This document shows positions 18,758-23,352 of a stretch of DNA of 64,000 nucleotides, piece after piece (the stretch's first letter is position 1; each line of letters begins with the position of its first letter). The position numbers and the translations under genes are program-made. The DNA is from an uncultured Blautia sp. (GTDB lineage Bacteria; Bacillota; Clostridia; Lachnospirales; Lachnospiraceae), in assembly GCA_946557785.1 (NCBI GenBank), contig CAMNTH010000002.1, forward strand, positions 1-64,000. Reading direction: 5' to 3'. The notes under the pieces were generated by a model, which was not told where the DNA came from, ran no database searches, and saw only the letters and a list, made by a program, of their open reading frames with translations.

Positions 18758-20668
18758 TTAAGCCAGCTCTTCCCATTTTTCATAAAGCGTTTCCAGTTCT
18801 TTTTGGATGGCATCTTTTTCCCGGCTAAGCTGTGTGCATTTTGCAACATTGGTACAGACATCCGGGAGGACTAATGTGTCATCAATTTCTTTGTCCCTGG
18901 TTTCAAGTTCTTCAATTCTGGCTTCTGTTTTCTTCAGCTCGTTTTCCCGTTTTCGTTTTCGTGCCTGCTCTTCTTTTTGCTGCTGCCAGGAGACTTTGCT
19001 TTCGGAAGTCTGGGCCTGGGGCGTTAGGATATCTTCCTTTACAGGTGCATATTTTTCGGTCAGTTCGTCCTTTTTCTCCAGGTAATAATCGTAATCTCCA
19101 ATGTAATTTACAACGTTCTGGTTAGTAAGATCCAGGATCCTGGTAGCTGTTTGGTTGATGAAATAGCGGTCATGGGAAACGTAGAATACAGTTCCTGTAT
19201 AACTATTAAGCGCTTCCTCCAGGATTTCCTTGGAAGCAATATCCAGATGGTTTGTAGGCTCATCCAGGATTAGAAAGTTTGCTTCGGAAAGCATGAGCTT
19301 TGCAAGGGAAACACGTCCCCGCTCCCCTCCGGAAAGGGCAGAAATTTCTTTGAATACATCATCTCCTGTAAAAAGGAAGGCAGCCAGCATATTGCGGATT
19401 TCTGTTTCCGTAAGGGTGGGATATGTATCGGAAATTTCCTGGAAAATCGTCTTTTCCATATGAAGGACATGGTGCTCCTGGTCATAATAGCCAATGAGAA
19501 CCTTGGAACCAAGCGTGACCTTGCCGCTGTCGGGGGGAAGAAGACTGTTGATGATCTTCAGCATAGTGGTCTTTCCGGTACCGTTGCTGCCAATGAGGGC
19601 AACCCGTTCTCCCCTTTTGATTTCAAAAGAAATATTGGTAAACAATGTCTGTCCGGGGAAGCTTTTTGAAAGGTCATCCACCATCAATACGTCATTTCCG
19701 CTGATAAAACGGGGCTCCAGAGAAAGACGCATCTGATCCTGTATTACCACAGGCTTATCCAGACGATGGATTTTATCCAGCATTTTTTCGCGGCTCTCTG
19801 CACGCTTGATGGATTTTTCCCGGTTAAAGGATTTCAGTTTGGCAATAACAGCCTCCTGGTGCTTGATCTTACGCTGCTGGTTTAAGTAGGCTTTGTACTG
19901 AGCGTCCCTTAGCTGGGCTTTTTTCAGCGCAAAAGCAGAGTAGTTGCCGCTGTAGCTCATCACTTCTCCTGCTTCGATCTCCACGATCTTGGTCACCACT
20001 TTATCCAGGAAATAACGGTCATGGGAGACTATGAAAACGGCTCCGGGATAATTCATAAGGTATGTCTCCAGCCAGGAAATGCTTTCCATATCCAGATGGT
20101 TTGTAGGCTCATCCAAAAGAAGTATGTCTGGTTTGGAGATTAAGAGCTTGCCAAGAGCAACACGTGTTTTTTGGCCACCGGAAAGGGTTTCAATTTGTTT
20201 GTCAAAATCTTCCTCTAAGAAGCCAAGACCCTTTAAAACACCTGTTAGTTCACTTTTGTATGCATATCCGTTTTCAAGTTCAAATTCGTGTGTCAGGCGC
20301 GTATATGTGTTCATTAGTGCATCAAGCGCAGAACCATTGGTATGCTGCATTTCCAGTTCAATAGAACGCATGCGTGACTCCATATCCAGGATGTGCTGTT
20401 TGGTGGTAAGCAGCTCCTCATAAATGGTATGGTGTCCGTGGATATCCTGGTACTGTGCCAGATAACCGATATGTTTATCCTTGGAGATTACAACTGTTCC
20501 GGAATCGGAAGGCATTTCCTGCATGATGATGCGCAGGAGAGTAGTCTTGCCAGCTCCGTTGCTGCCGATGAGGGCGGCTTTTTCACGTTCTTCTATATGA
20601 AAAGATGCATCATGGAGAATAACCTTTTCGCCAAAGGATTTGCATATGTTCTGACATGATAAAATCAT
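18758..20668 (-). CDS. ABC-F family ATP-binding protein (ribosome-associated)
   Basis: About 636 aa with two ABC ATPase domains and no membrane segments. Walker A sites are GSNGAGKTTLL and GSNGTGKTTML, signatures LSGGQKTRVALGK and LSGGERGRVSLAK, and Walker B LLLDEPTNHLD and LILDEPTNHLD. The interdomain linker and a charged C-terminal coiled coil (from about residue 560) are typical of ABC-F proteins such as YdiF/Uup, which act on the ribosomal E site or in resistance. GGAGG lies seven bases before the ATG at 20668; the longer frame to 20692 has no such signal. No drug-specific role can be read. Confidence 0.92.
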   Translation of the reverse strand: MILSCQNICKSFGEKVILHDASFHIEEREKAALIGSNGAGKTTLLRIIMQEMPSDSGTVVISKDKHIGYLAQYQDIHGHHTIYEELLTTKQHILDMESRMRSIELEMQHTNGSALDALMNTYTRLTHEFELENGYAYKSELTGVLKGLGFLEEDFDKQIETLSGGQKTRVALGKLLISKPDILLLDEPTNHLDMESISWLETYLMNYPGAVFIVSHDRYFLDKVVTKIVEIEAGEVMSYSGNYSAFALKKAQLRDAQYKAYLNQQRKIKHQEAVIAKLKSFNREKSIKRAESREKMLDKIHRLDKPVVIQDQMRLSLEPRFISGNDVLMVDDLSKSFPGQTLFTNISFEIKRGERVALIGSNGTGKTTMLKIINSLLPPDSGKVTLGSKVLIGYYDQEHHVLHMEKTIFQEISDTYPTLTETEIRNMLAAFLFTGDDVFKEISALSGGERGRVSLAKLMLSEANFLILDEPTNHLDIASKEILEEALNSYTGTVFYVSHDRYFINQTATRILDLTNQNVVNYIGDYDYYLEKKDELTEKYAPVKEDILTPQAQTSESKVSWQQQKEEQARKRKRENELKKTEARIEELETRDKEIDDTLVLPDVCTNVAKCTQLSREKDAIQKELETLYEKWEELA

Positions 20669-20702
20669 AGAAATTCCTCCATATTTTCTCAATTAATTGA
20701 TA

Positions 20703-20764
20703 CCGGGGGCAAAAGGTACAAACCCACATGAGCTTGCTCATAGGTGGGGGCTTTTGACCCCAAC
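20703..20764 (-). repeat. Dispersed palindromic repeat, copy A
   Basis: The sequence forms a long hairpin: outer arms GGGGGCAAAAG and CTTTTGACCCC, inner arms CCCACaTGAGC and GCTCAtaGGTGG. The reverse complement matches copy B at 43418-43475 over more than 40 bases. ATTAATT occurs on both sides (near 20690 and 20768), possibly an insertion footprint. It is intergenic, upstream of both the ABC-F gene and rex. Confidence 0.7.
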
Positions 20765-20857
20765 GTGATTAATTACATGATTCAAAGTTCATTATATCGA
20801 AATCAGAGATTTTGTAAAGCAGATTTTGGGGATTTTGTCAAGATACGTGCAGAAAAT

Positions 20858-20874
20858 TTGTGAATATGCTACAA
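20858..20874 (+). promoter_or_regulatory. Possible Rex autoregulatory site
   Basis: TTGTGAATATGCTACAA has the TTGTgAA...ACAA ends of a Rex operator but a poor right half. It lies just upstream of the rex -35 box, where autoregulation would be expected. Confidence 0.3.
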
Positions 20875-20880
20875 CTTTAA

Positions 20881-20909
20881 TTGACAATAAAATGACTAGT
20901 CGTTATAAT
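20881..20909 (+). promoter_or_regulatory. Consensus SigA promoter of rex
   Basis: TTGACA (20881-20886), exactly 17 bp, then TATAAT (20904-20909): a full consensus promoter 30 bases before the rex start. Confidence 0.88.
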
Positions 20910-20938
20910 TGACGTAGTATAGTAAGGAGGGAATGTAA

Positions 20939-21589
20939 GTGGAGGCAAAAGAGATTTCAAGGGCTGTGATAAAACGTCTTCCACGTTATTACCGGTACTT
21001 GGGGGAGCTGCTGGAAGAGAATGTGGAGAGAATCTCATCAAATGATTTAAGTAAAAAAATGAAAGTCACTGCATCCCAGATTCGCCAGGATCTGAATAAC
21101 TTCGGCGGTTTCGGGCAGCAGGGATATGGATATAATGTTAAGTATCTTTATACCGAAATAGGAAAGATTCTTGGTCTTGATACCAAGCATCCGATGATTA
21201 TTTTAGGTGCAGGTAATCTGGGACAGGCTCTTGCCAATTATGTGGATTTTGAGAAAAGGGGATTTAAGTTGGTGGGCATTTTTGACATAAATCCTGTGCT
21301 GGAGGGAATTGCTGTCAGAGGGATCGAGATTCAGATGCTTAGCGAACTGCCTCTTTTTATGAAAGAAAATCTGGTGGAAATTGCAGTACTTACCCTGCCA
21401 AAGAATAAGGCAAGGGAGATGGCGGATATCCTGATTGAAAACGGAGTAAAGGCAATTTGGAATTTTGCCCATGTAGATCTTGATACGCCGGATGATGTGA
21501 TCGTAGAGAATGTTCATTTGTCAGAGAGCCTTATGACACTTTCCTATAATCTCAGCAAATACCGTCAGGAACATATTATTGAAGAATAG
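20939..21589 (+). CDS. rex: Redox-sensing transcriptional repressor Rex
   Basis: A 216-aa protein with an N-terminal winged helix (AVIKRLPRYYRYLGELL; KKMKVTASQIRQDLNNFGG) and a Rossmann NAD(H) domain (MIILGAGNLGQAL). Rex represses fermentation and redox genes when NADH/NAD is low and releases DNA on NADH binding. The GTG start follows AAGGAGG by eight bases and a consensus promoter precedes it. The TAG stop uses the first base of a MITE; without the insertion it would read TAA. The flavin/iron-sulfur complex at 28180-33977 is a reasonable regulon candidate. Confidence 0.96.
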   Translation: MEAKEISRAVIKRLPRYYRYLGELLEENVERISSNDLSKKMKVTASQIRQDLNNFGGFGQQGYGYNVKYLYTEIGKILGLDTKHPMIILGAGNLGQALANYVDFEKRGFKLVGIFDINPVLEGIAVRGIEIQMLSELPLFMKENLVEIAVLTLPKNKAREMADILIENGVKAIWNFAHVDLDTPDDVIVENVHLSESLMTLSYNLSKYRQEHIIEE

Positions 21590-21724
21590 TAACTATTCAG
21601 TAGGCAGTATCCCGCAAGGTGTTTTCATGCATGAGAATTCCGAGACATACAGGCCAAAACTCTTTCACCGAAGGTGGTTTTTAATGAATTTTGGCTCGTA
21701 ACTGTGAAGGTACTGAACAGTTAC
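21589..21724. mobile_element. MITE, 136 bp, with 8-bp target duplication
   Basis: Terminal inverted repeats are GTAACTATTCAGTA (21589-21602) and TACTGAACAGTTAC (21711-21724), 13 of 14 matching. The element is flanked by a perfect direct repeat GAAGAATA (21581-21588 and 21725-21732), as expected for an 8-bp target duplication. It has internal hairpins (GCCAAAA/TTTTGGC; CACC/GGTG) and no coding capacity. Ends in GTAA with 8-bp duplications are typical of IS66-family transposition, so an IS66-like transposase may mobilise it (inference). Confidence 0.85.
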
Positions 21725-21840
21725 GAAGAATAAAGGAAGCAGGATGAGCTGTTACCGGCCAGGAGAAGTTAAAATGGCATGGTGGCGGCTTTTTCTTAGA
21801 ATAAATATAGGATCGTGTCAGATTGGAAGTGAGGCAGCAG

Positions 21841-23352
21841 ATGAAAGATATTATAACCGCCAGCCGTATGAAGGAATTGGACGCAGCGGCCATAAAGGAG
21901 ATGGGAATGCCTTCCCTGGTGCTTATGGAGCGTGCAGCACTGAAGACATCAGAGGAAATCATAAACGGATTTCCGCTTAATAAAGAGAAGGAACATGTTC
22001 TGGTGGTCTGCGGAAGGGGAAATAACGGGGGAGATGGAATTGCCATTGCAAGGCTTCTTCATCTTCAGGGAATCCGCACGGATTGTTATCTGGCCATGGG
22101 TGCAGAAGCCATGACCAAGGAGACGAGACAGCAGTATGAGACTGCGGTAAATTATCAGGTGCCTATGGTGCATAACCCGGAATGGGATGAATATACTACT
22201 ATAGTAGATGCCATATTCGGCGTTGGCCTTTCCCGTACAGTAGAAGGACGGTGCGGGGAGATTATCCGCTGTATGAACCAGGCGGATGCATGGAAAGTGG
22301 CTGTAGATATTCCCTCAGGAGTGGATAGTGACACAGGAAGGGAATTGGGGATTGCTTTTCGGGCAGATCTGACAGTAACCTTTGCATACCGCAAACAGGG
22401 GCTTTGCTTTTATCCTGGAAGGATGTTTGCAGGGCGGGTCGTTATTGGGGATATTGGCATTTACGGGGCAGAACAGGCAGATGACCGTACCTGTTATCTG
22501 GAATGGGGGGATCTGAGACTGCTGCCGGAACGGGTTCCATTTGGAAATAAAGGAACCTTCGGGAAGGTTCTTGTGGTGGCCGGAACGGAAGGCATGTGCG
22601 GAGCAGCATTTTTTAGCGCAGCGGCAGCACTGGCGTGCGGAGCCGGAATGGTCAAGATCCAGACAGTGGAGGAAAATAGAATTCCTCTTTTGACTTTGCT
22701 GCCGGAGACCATGGTCACCTGTGAATTTACGGAAGAGTCTAACCGGAAATGCCTGGACTGGTGTGATGTTCTTATCATTGGACCTGGACTTGGACTCTCC
22801 GGAAAAAGCCGTGCCAGAGCGGAATGGTTTTTACACAATGCCGCAAAGACCCAAAAGCCGGTGATTTTGGATGCAGATGGGCTGAACCTTCTGGCAATGT
22901 ACCCTGAATGGAAATCATATCTGTCGGAGCGTGTAACGATTACCCCGCATCTGGGGGAAATGGGCAGACTTTTGAGGGAGGACATTAGCCGGATTCAGCC
23001 CCGCATGATAGAAAAATCCCGGGAATTTGCCCGGGAAACAGATGCCGTATGCGTCCTAAAGGATGCCTGTACGGTAATTGCGGATAAAAATGGAAGGACC
23101 TATCTGAATCTAACCGGAAATCCTGGGATGGCAACAGCGGGAAGCGGCGACGTTCTCTGCGGTGTGCTTGCGGCCATACACTGCATGTATCTGAAGGAAG
23201 AAAAGCCGGATTATGGATTGAGGGCGGCGCTTGGCGTTTATCTTCATGGAAAAAGCGGTGATTTGGCCGCAAAGGAGATCGGGCAAAGGGGAATGACCGC
23301 AAGAGATATCATCCGTATGATGCCAGGCATGCTTCAAAGAATAGAGAAATAG
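21841..23352 (+). CDS. nnr: Bifunctional NAD(P)H-hydrate epimerase/ADP-dependent dehydratase
   Basis: A 503-aa repair enzyme. The N-terminal YjeF_N epimerase domain (about 1-215) has CGRGNNGGDGIAIARLL. The C-terminal ribokinase-like dehydratase domain (about 225-500) has GPGLGLSG, DADGLNLLA, TPHLGEMGRLL and NPGMATAGSGDVLCGVLA. Together they restore damaged NAD(P)HX to NAD(P)H. The ATG at 21841 follows GAGG by six bases; the TTG at 21823 has no site. Its likely promoter lies in or beyond the MITE, so the insertion could affect expression. Confidence 0.94.
   Translation: MKDIITASRMKELDAAAIKEMGMPSLVLMERAALKTSEEIINGFPLNKEKEHVLVVCGRGNNGGDGIAIARLLHLQGIRTDCYLAMGAEAMTKETRQQYETAVNYQVPMVHNPEWDEYTTIVDAIFGVGLSRTVEGRCGEIIRCMNQADAWKVAVDIPSGVDSDTGRELGIAFRADLTVTFAYRKQGLCFYPGRMFAGRVVIGDIGIYGAEQADDRTCYLEWGDLRLLPERVPFGNKGTFGKVLVVAGTEGMCGAAFFSAAAALACGAGMVKIQTVEENRIPLLTLLPETMVTCEFTEESNRKCLDWCDVLIIGPGLGLSGKSRARAEWFLHNAAKTQKPVILDADGLNLLAMYPEWKSYLSERVTITPHLGEMGRLLREDISRIQPRMIEKSREFARETDAVCVLKDACTVIADKNGRTYLNLTGNPGMATAGSGDVLCGVLAAIHCMYLKEEKPDYGLRAALGVYLHGKSGDLAAKEIGQRGMTARDIIRMMPGMLQRIEK

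Follow-up and report, generated by a model that had tools for sequence, protein, structure and literature searches.

REP and REPIN sequences are small dispersed repeats, both short and numerous. Nearly precise excision of Tn10 is a deletion between short direct repeats inside the ends of the transposon, which leaves a short remnant between the target duplications. MITEAba12 is reportedly a further bacterial MITE, short and non-coding, with inverted ends and a target duplication. In the portions of the two reports available to us, MITEPsy1 is described with 4-nt duplications and ends that resemble those of ISPsy2 (PMC3189936), and the MITE in the fosZ paper is described with 4-bp repeats (PMC12888890). 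ISDge4, a one-ORF member of the ISBst12 group of IS66, is reported in the accessible part of its description to have the ends GTGACTACTCAGCA and GTAACTGCTCAGCA, an 8-bp repeat and active transposition (PMC12898284). Neither the family presented here nor any Lachnospiraceae MITE derived from IS66 was found described in our searches of the open-access literature. A word search for IS66 in a MITE review gave no match (PMC10969869), and the open-access papers that contain one of four 12-mers have titles without a link to transposons.

The element studied here lies at the stop codon of rex in a 64,000-nucleotide stretch of DNA (the window). Like MITEPsy1, so far as the available text of PMC3189936 describes it, the rex element is short and non-coding, has inverted ends and a target duplication, occurs in several copies and is presumed to be mobilised in trans; unlike MITEPsy1, its family has IS66-type ends and duplicates 8 bp of target. 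The MITE resembles the ISBst12 group in having ends of the GTRACTRYTCAG form and an 8-bp duplication, as judged on the accessible description of ISDge4 rather than on a group consensus (PMC12898284). The MITE ends match those of ISDge4, the one group member compared, at 10-12 of 14 positions. Unlike members of that group, the rex element is only 136 bp long and codes for nothing.

We found that the insertion at the rex end is flanked on both sides by GAAGAATA, and that its terminal inverted repeats, GTAACTATTCAGTA on the left and TACTGAACAGTTAC on the right, are 14 bp long and 93% complementary, with one mismatch. These features had been proposed in an earlier note made from the letters alone, which also read the TAG stop of rex as borrowing the first G of the element, and they proved exact to the base. 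With the element rex ends GAA GAA TAG, and removing the element with one duplicate gives GAA GAA TAA, so the Rex protein is unchanged by the insertion. The features of the locus are as follows.

20939-21589, + strand: rex, redox-sensing repressor (NF003990); its TAG stop is completed by the first base of the element
21581-21588, + strand: target duplication, left copy, GAAGAATA, read from the sequence; also the last rex codons
21589-21724, + strand: MITE, 136 bp, non-coding (from its ends, ORF check and family)
21589-21602, + strand: left terminal inverted repeat, GTAACTATTCAGTA
21652-21696, + strand: inner double hairpin, GGCCAAAA...TTTTGGCT around TCACC-GAA-GGTGG, then TTTTT; terminator-like, with compensatory changes in the family
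21698-21724, + strand: right-end hairpin unit, 27 bp, GTAACTGTGAAGGTACTGAACAGTTAC; stands alone with its own 8-bp duplication elsewhere in other genomes
21711-21724, - strand: right terminal inverted repeat, which reads GTAACTGTTCAGTA on this strand
21725-21732, + strand: target duplication, right copy, GAAGAATA
21746-21797, + strand: rex terminator hairpin, stem 21746-21791 and T run 21790-21797; 3′ of the element, its sequence also present in two relatives, G024 and the empty-site genome G028
21823-23352, + strand: downstream NAD(P)HX epimerase/dehydratase gene (YjeF_N + Carb_kinase)

The ORFs within the element or across its left part are chance-sized (40, 23 and 21 aa), and a 121-aa minus-strand ORF (21681-22046) overlaps its right end. 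The last 27 bases form a separate hairpin, GTAACTGT-11 nt-ACAGTTAC. Short and non-coding, with inverted ends, a target duplication, dispersed copies in relatives and an empty site, the rex element has the features of a MITE and is ordinary in kind.

The earlier note had suggested searching the genome and its relatives for the 136-bp unit, and dispersed copies were found in relatives, whereas the genome itself (3.17 Mb, 47 contigs, 96% complete) holds one full copy only. It also holds a 25-nt right-end remnant without a clear duplication (C18:2072-2096), and a third near-match to the end pattern, on C3, is no better than what the reversed control gives. A 211-bp query gave whole or partial matches in 20 of 61 genomes, all of the same genus and including the genome itself, and no matches in 24 genomes from the rest of the order; the MITE query matches 14 times in each of G028 and G029. 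Allowing one mismatch, the right-end 27-mer is present in 21 of the 64 genomes of the genus and, at the level of the family, in 24 of 397 sampled genomes, with a reversed-pattern control of 0 in both. Furthermore, it occurs in at least 119 stretches of a species-wide collection, and the 80 titles among the matches listed are Lachnospiraceae names or read Eubacterium, Clostridiales, Eubacteriales, Clostridia or plain bacterium. Ten genomes reached through 27-mer loci contain 5 to 130 units each (130, 99 and 77 in the top three; reversed control 0). The genus is regarded as Blautia on the ground that loci from G005 and G087 share nearly all tested 60-mers with named B. schinkii and B. wexlerae contigs, and one locus from G081 is by the same measure close to an Oliverpabstia intestinalis contig. 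Phage carriage of the 27-mer was rejected, as an exact match to either of the two variants searched was not found in a viral contig collection. In one locus (L133, minus strand, around 6189 and 6329) two tandem MITE copies share the flank AAAAAGAT, as if one had entered the duplication of the other.

To place the insertion among relatives we used a survey of Rex, which matches in 56 of the 64 genus genomes at E 1e-60 or better. Thirty loci were examined, of which 25, including that of the window, were readable and five (L247, L250, L252, L256 and L262) were unreadable by the end motif. The element is at the rex end in the genome of the window (G000) and in G024 only; the other 23 of the 24 readable relatives have none that the end scan recognises, a wording that allows for degenerate sequences such as a 27-mer present in G087. 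In G028, whose Rex is 98% identical, alignment shows the rex stop running straight into the same terminator with no insert, which is an empty site. G024 carries the same insertion reduced to 45 bp, between GACGAATC and GAAGAATA (two mismatches) and with the same right neighbourhood. As this congener carries the insertion in shortened form at a rex DNA identity of 84%, the insertion is old, unless G000 and G024 exchanged the region. The earlier note had named a single copy in all genomes and no empty site in close relatives as the outcome that would speak against a MITE; we found instead copies with duplications of their own in relatives, and an empty site at rex. The degenerate 27-mer in G087 (21/27) is a separate sequence in the gap between rex and the NAD(P)HX gene, in opposite orientation (L257, position 1401).

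The rex terminator is predicted to fold at -26.1 kcal/mol for 21738-21805 (z -4.79), and a weaker terminator-like hairpin lies within the element (21665-21677; z -2.21 for 21650-21700). Because the terminator is 3′ of the element, the insertion extends the rex 3′ untranslated region and adds this weaker hairpin. The earlier note had also raised a possible effect on transcription of the NAD(P)HX gene. Such an effect seems unlikely, since the element stands between the rex stop and a strong terminator that is also present in the empty-site relative. The copy was presumably tolerated because the Rex protein and the rex terminator were both spared. The rex-end site is typical of the family, whose insertions are often close to gene 3′ ends (with solitary 27-bp units and longer copies pooled and ORFs called crudely, 50 of 73 are no more than 50 bp from a 3′ end, versus 35 of 78 for a 5′ end). 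Upstream of rex, the window has a perfect 12/12 sigma-70 promoter (TTGACA-17-TATAAT, 20881-20909, + strand) and a sub-threshold Rfam match to the Clostridiales-1 RNA (20698-20837, + strand; 25.5 bits against a cut-off of 48; E 0.005 in a 1.6-kb search and 0.18 in a larger one), the latter between rex and a divergent gene that reads as ABC-ATPase-like from its sequence.

As for the transposase, PF03050 (IS66 transposase) is found in 31 of the 64 genus genomes and has no match in G000, G028 or G029, despite the 14 MITE-query matches in each of the last two. A 1696-bp IS66-family element in G011 (L195) has GTAACTATTCAGAACCCC at both ends and the duplication ATATTTTT; its first 12 bp are as in the MITE, and its transposase reading frame is interrupted, leaving pieces of 337 and 150 aa. 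A second such element, of 1893 bp in G021 (L201), has the ends GTAACAGTTCAGATA, the duplication CTTCACTT and a single 515-aa transposase ORF with PF03050; a single ORF is likewise what the accessible text of PMC12898284 gives for the ISBst12 group. Both proteins are IS66 by Pfam PF03050, with DUF6444, and, at 156.6 and 136.8 bits, score under the 180 bits that NCBIfam sets as its threshold for an IS66 transposase. Matches to the L195 protein were found in 13 of the 64 genus genomes at 1e-10 or better and in 4 of the 397 family genomes at 1e-40 or better. Furthermore, one end of MITE type adjoins an IS66 gene in each of L228-L232 and in L371, with GTAACTATTCAGTACCCC in L230. The TACC end is seen only in L230, which is cut by the contig end and is the nearest thing to an intact autonomous element with the exact MITE ends GTAACT[AG]TTCAGTACC; none was found among the examined loci. 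A classical 2.5-kb IS66 of the same genus (L183) was rejected as partner, its ends (GTAAGCGTCAAA, GTAAGCG) being a poorer fit.

The proposal of the earlier note that the insertion came from IS66-type transposition is thus supported by congeneric IS66-family elements that duplicate 8 bp and whose ends equal or closely resemble those of the MITE, and by the similar ends of ISDge4 in the accessible part of its description. An IS66-like element with such ends, which the note had suggested looking for, exists in congeners, but no IS66 transposase was detected in the genome of the window. An ISBst12-type transposase that would have acted on the MITE in trans is the best-supported candidate for the mover.

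In a first scan for end pairs, 66 elements, most of them 132-144 bp in length, had 8-bp flanks that agreed with at most 2 mismatches. At 205 distinct 27-mer places (358 loci, chosen for matching the unit, so that the shares are not genome-wide), 88 units form the end of a longer element whose 8-bp duplication has 0-2 mismatches (none in 62 cases), and 42 stand alone with an 8-bp duplication of their own ("solos": 23 perfect, 13 with one mismatch and 6 with two). The remaining 75 are neither, many of them with MITE-like sequence upstream and a left end that was not found. As a control, mispaired flanks were perfect in 7.2e-5 of 41,820 pairs. Over 287 places there were 67 solo calls, with duplications at 0-2 mismatches.

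Like REP and REPIN sequences, the 27-bp hairpin is short and numerous, with 77-130 units in three genomes; it differs from them in being flanked by 8-bp target duplications and in having the sequence of one end of a larger element. Like Tn10 remnants, the solos are a short remnant between target duplications; the difference is that natural remnants are many here, and that their mechanism is one we infer. The sequence GTAACT is common to the left end of the MITE and the inner start of the 27-bp unit, so that a single deletion between the two yields exactly the 27-bp remnant. Shortened family copies of 50-78 bp occur, and one site is 54 bp in G087 versus 28 bp in G086, with right flanks 97% identical and a short form one base off the 27-bp solo. 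Together with the 45-bp form at rex in G024, these copies indicate that shortening in place happens; besides rex, the G087/G086 site (L353/L354) is the one informative pair of orthologous sites differing in length among the places examined. Judged from these sequences, the 27-mers are most likely internal-deletion remnants that arose between the GTAACT repeats, an account we rank above transposition of the unit itself.

Under the latter alternative, which we think unlikely, the transposase would take the inner GTAACTGT as a second end and move the 27 bp. The number of solos with their own duplication speaks for it, as the 23, 13 and 6 cases at zero, one and two mismatches compare with cross-pair expectations of about 0.015, 0.17 and 1.8, and the targets of solos and of longer copies alike tend to begin with G followed by A (28 and 75 duplications). 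In the same direction, a single gene has a solo on either side of it in three congeneric species (G011, G016 and G073), with the duplications GAAAATTT and GAGTTATC (at 2760-2786 and 5289-5315 in L173; also in L174 and L296). However, in-place shortening is indicated by the copies described above, and 27 bp would leave little room for two ordinary transposase-binding ends. Solo duplications also look older, though not significantly so (perfect in 23 of 42 versus 62 of 88 for longer copies, p = 0.11). The G487 sample (44 places: 17 solos, 14 longer, 9 other and 4 right ends without duplication) has perfect duplications in 4 of 17 solos versus 10 of 14 longer copies, and the G483 sample (23 places: 6 solos, 12 longer, 4 other and 1 right end without duplication) in 4 of 6 versus 9 of 12. 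In the G309 sample (10 places: 2 solos, 7 longer) none of the 8 units of a subfamily whose inner GTAACT has changed to GTGACT is solo (L471-L478; 7 are the end of a longer, duplication-flanked element, and the eighth has MITE-like sequence upstream and a left end that was not found), while both units with intact GTAACT are; this is what self-transposition would give, but deletion between GTAACT repeats fits too. The G411 sample has no solos at its 10 places (7 longer), despite an intact inner end in 9. A broader form of the same idea, that the GTAACTGTGAAGGTACTGAACAGTTAC hairpin is mobilised by an ISBst12-type transposase with 8-bp duplications and seeds hairpins near gene 3′ ends across Lachnospiraceae, appears slightly more doubtful still; if true, few DNA units mobilised by a DDE transposase would be as small as the 27-bp hairpin.

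The paired 27-mers of G011, G016 and G073, which are 2.5-2.7 kb apart, were also considered as the ends of an autonomous element, which was rejected because they are two separate 27-bp solos. The gene between them reads like a glycoside hydrolase from its sequence. The bracketed stretch was reported as 100% identical in the three genomes, which hints at recent transfer, and the bracketed ORF is 57 aa shorter in G011 than in G016.

The interior of the element bears on another alternative, in which the element would be retained for a function as RNA or terminator module and would have spread only secondarily. We aligned copies of 132-144 bp in two sets, A1 with 25 Blautia-type copies and A2 with 17 others (42 of 46 copies of the first end-pair scan; L021, L085, L107 and the second copy in L152 were left out); because the ends served to select these copies, the strong conservation of the 27-mer in them proves nothing alone. 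Three internal helices are paired in 98.9% of cells in A1 and in A2, versus 28-47% in slid controls. Two-sided changes that keep pairing favour this alternative, with 41 cells in A1 (shuffled mean 14.0) and 37 in A2 (shuffled mean 9.9), reached by 0 of 500 shuffles in each set, as do the terminator-like hairpin with a T run inside the element and the location of copies within 50 bp of a neighbouring gene 3′ end (by crude ORF calls, 15 of 19 solos, versus 8 of 18 for 5′ ends, and 35 of 54 longer copies, versus 27 of 60). Two other measures are weak, however: further pair types do not exceed the shuffles (reached by 391 and 394 of 500), and the number of two-sided pairs in A1 is reached by 32 of 500. 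One-sided changes number 1 cell in A2 and 15 in A1 (9 of these at one pair), and their scarcity in A2 is no less compatible with arm-to-arm correction in a DNA hairpin than with selection on RNA. Moreover, no Rfam family matched over the element in window positions 20600-22200, or over copies in 8 loci including that of the window, and rex has its own terminator and is without the element in 23 of 24 readable relatives. We regard retention as an RNA or terminator module as improbable. Far less probable again, to the point of being negligible, is a chance inverted repeat that met a chance 8-bp repeat at the rex end. Short inverted ends are not rare (at 2 mismatches, at least 2 end-like matches were present in 11 of 100 shuffles of the window), which makes the ends alone less telling. 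The whole arrangement, in which 8-bp direct repeats flank 14-bp inverted repeats (no more than 1 mismatch, spacing 60-400 bp), is found at a single place in the window and in 0 of 40 first-order Markov resamples of it. The empty site and the many perfect duplications also contradict chance, and the existence of a dispersed family rules it out.

Taken together, the inverted ends with their 8-bp duplication, the dispersal of the family, the empty site and the IS66-family elements whose ends match and which also duplicate 8 bp are direct observations, and with a probability of roughly 0.9 we read the locus as an old structured MITE that was brought to the rex stop by an ISBst12-group IS66 transposase working in trans, with the 27-mers being most likely deletion remnants. 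Such a transposase would have acted on GTAACT[AG]TTCAG ends, and an ancestor shared by this species and G024 would have received the insertion through an 8-bp staggered cut. The source of the transposase would since have become absent from the genome, or may persist there undetected, and the copy would have been tolerated at rex. In other copies, deletion between the left-end GTAACT and the GTAACT inside the right end would have produced the 27-bp remnants.

For rex itself the insertion is probably of little consequence, its protein and terminator having been spared. The finding reveals an abundant MITE family in common gut bacteria, with up to 130 end units per genome, and links this family to the little-studied ISBst12 group of IS66. 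It also provides a natural series, from the full element to the 27-bp remnant, in which deletion and self-transposition can be distinguished.
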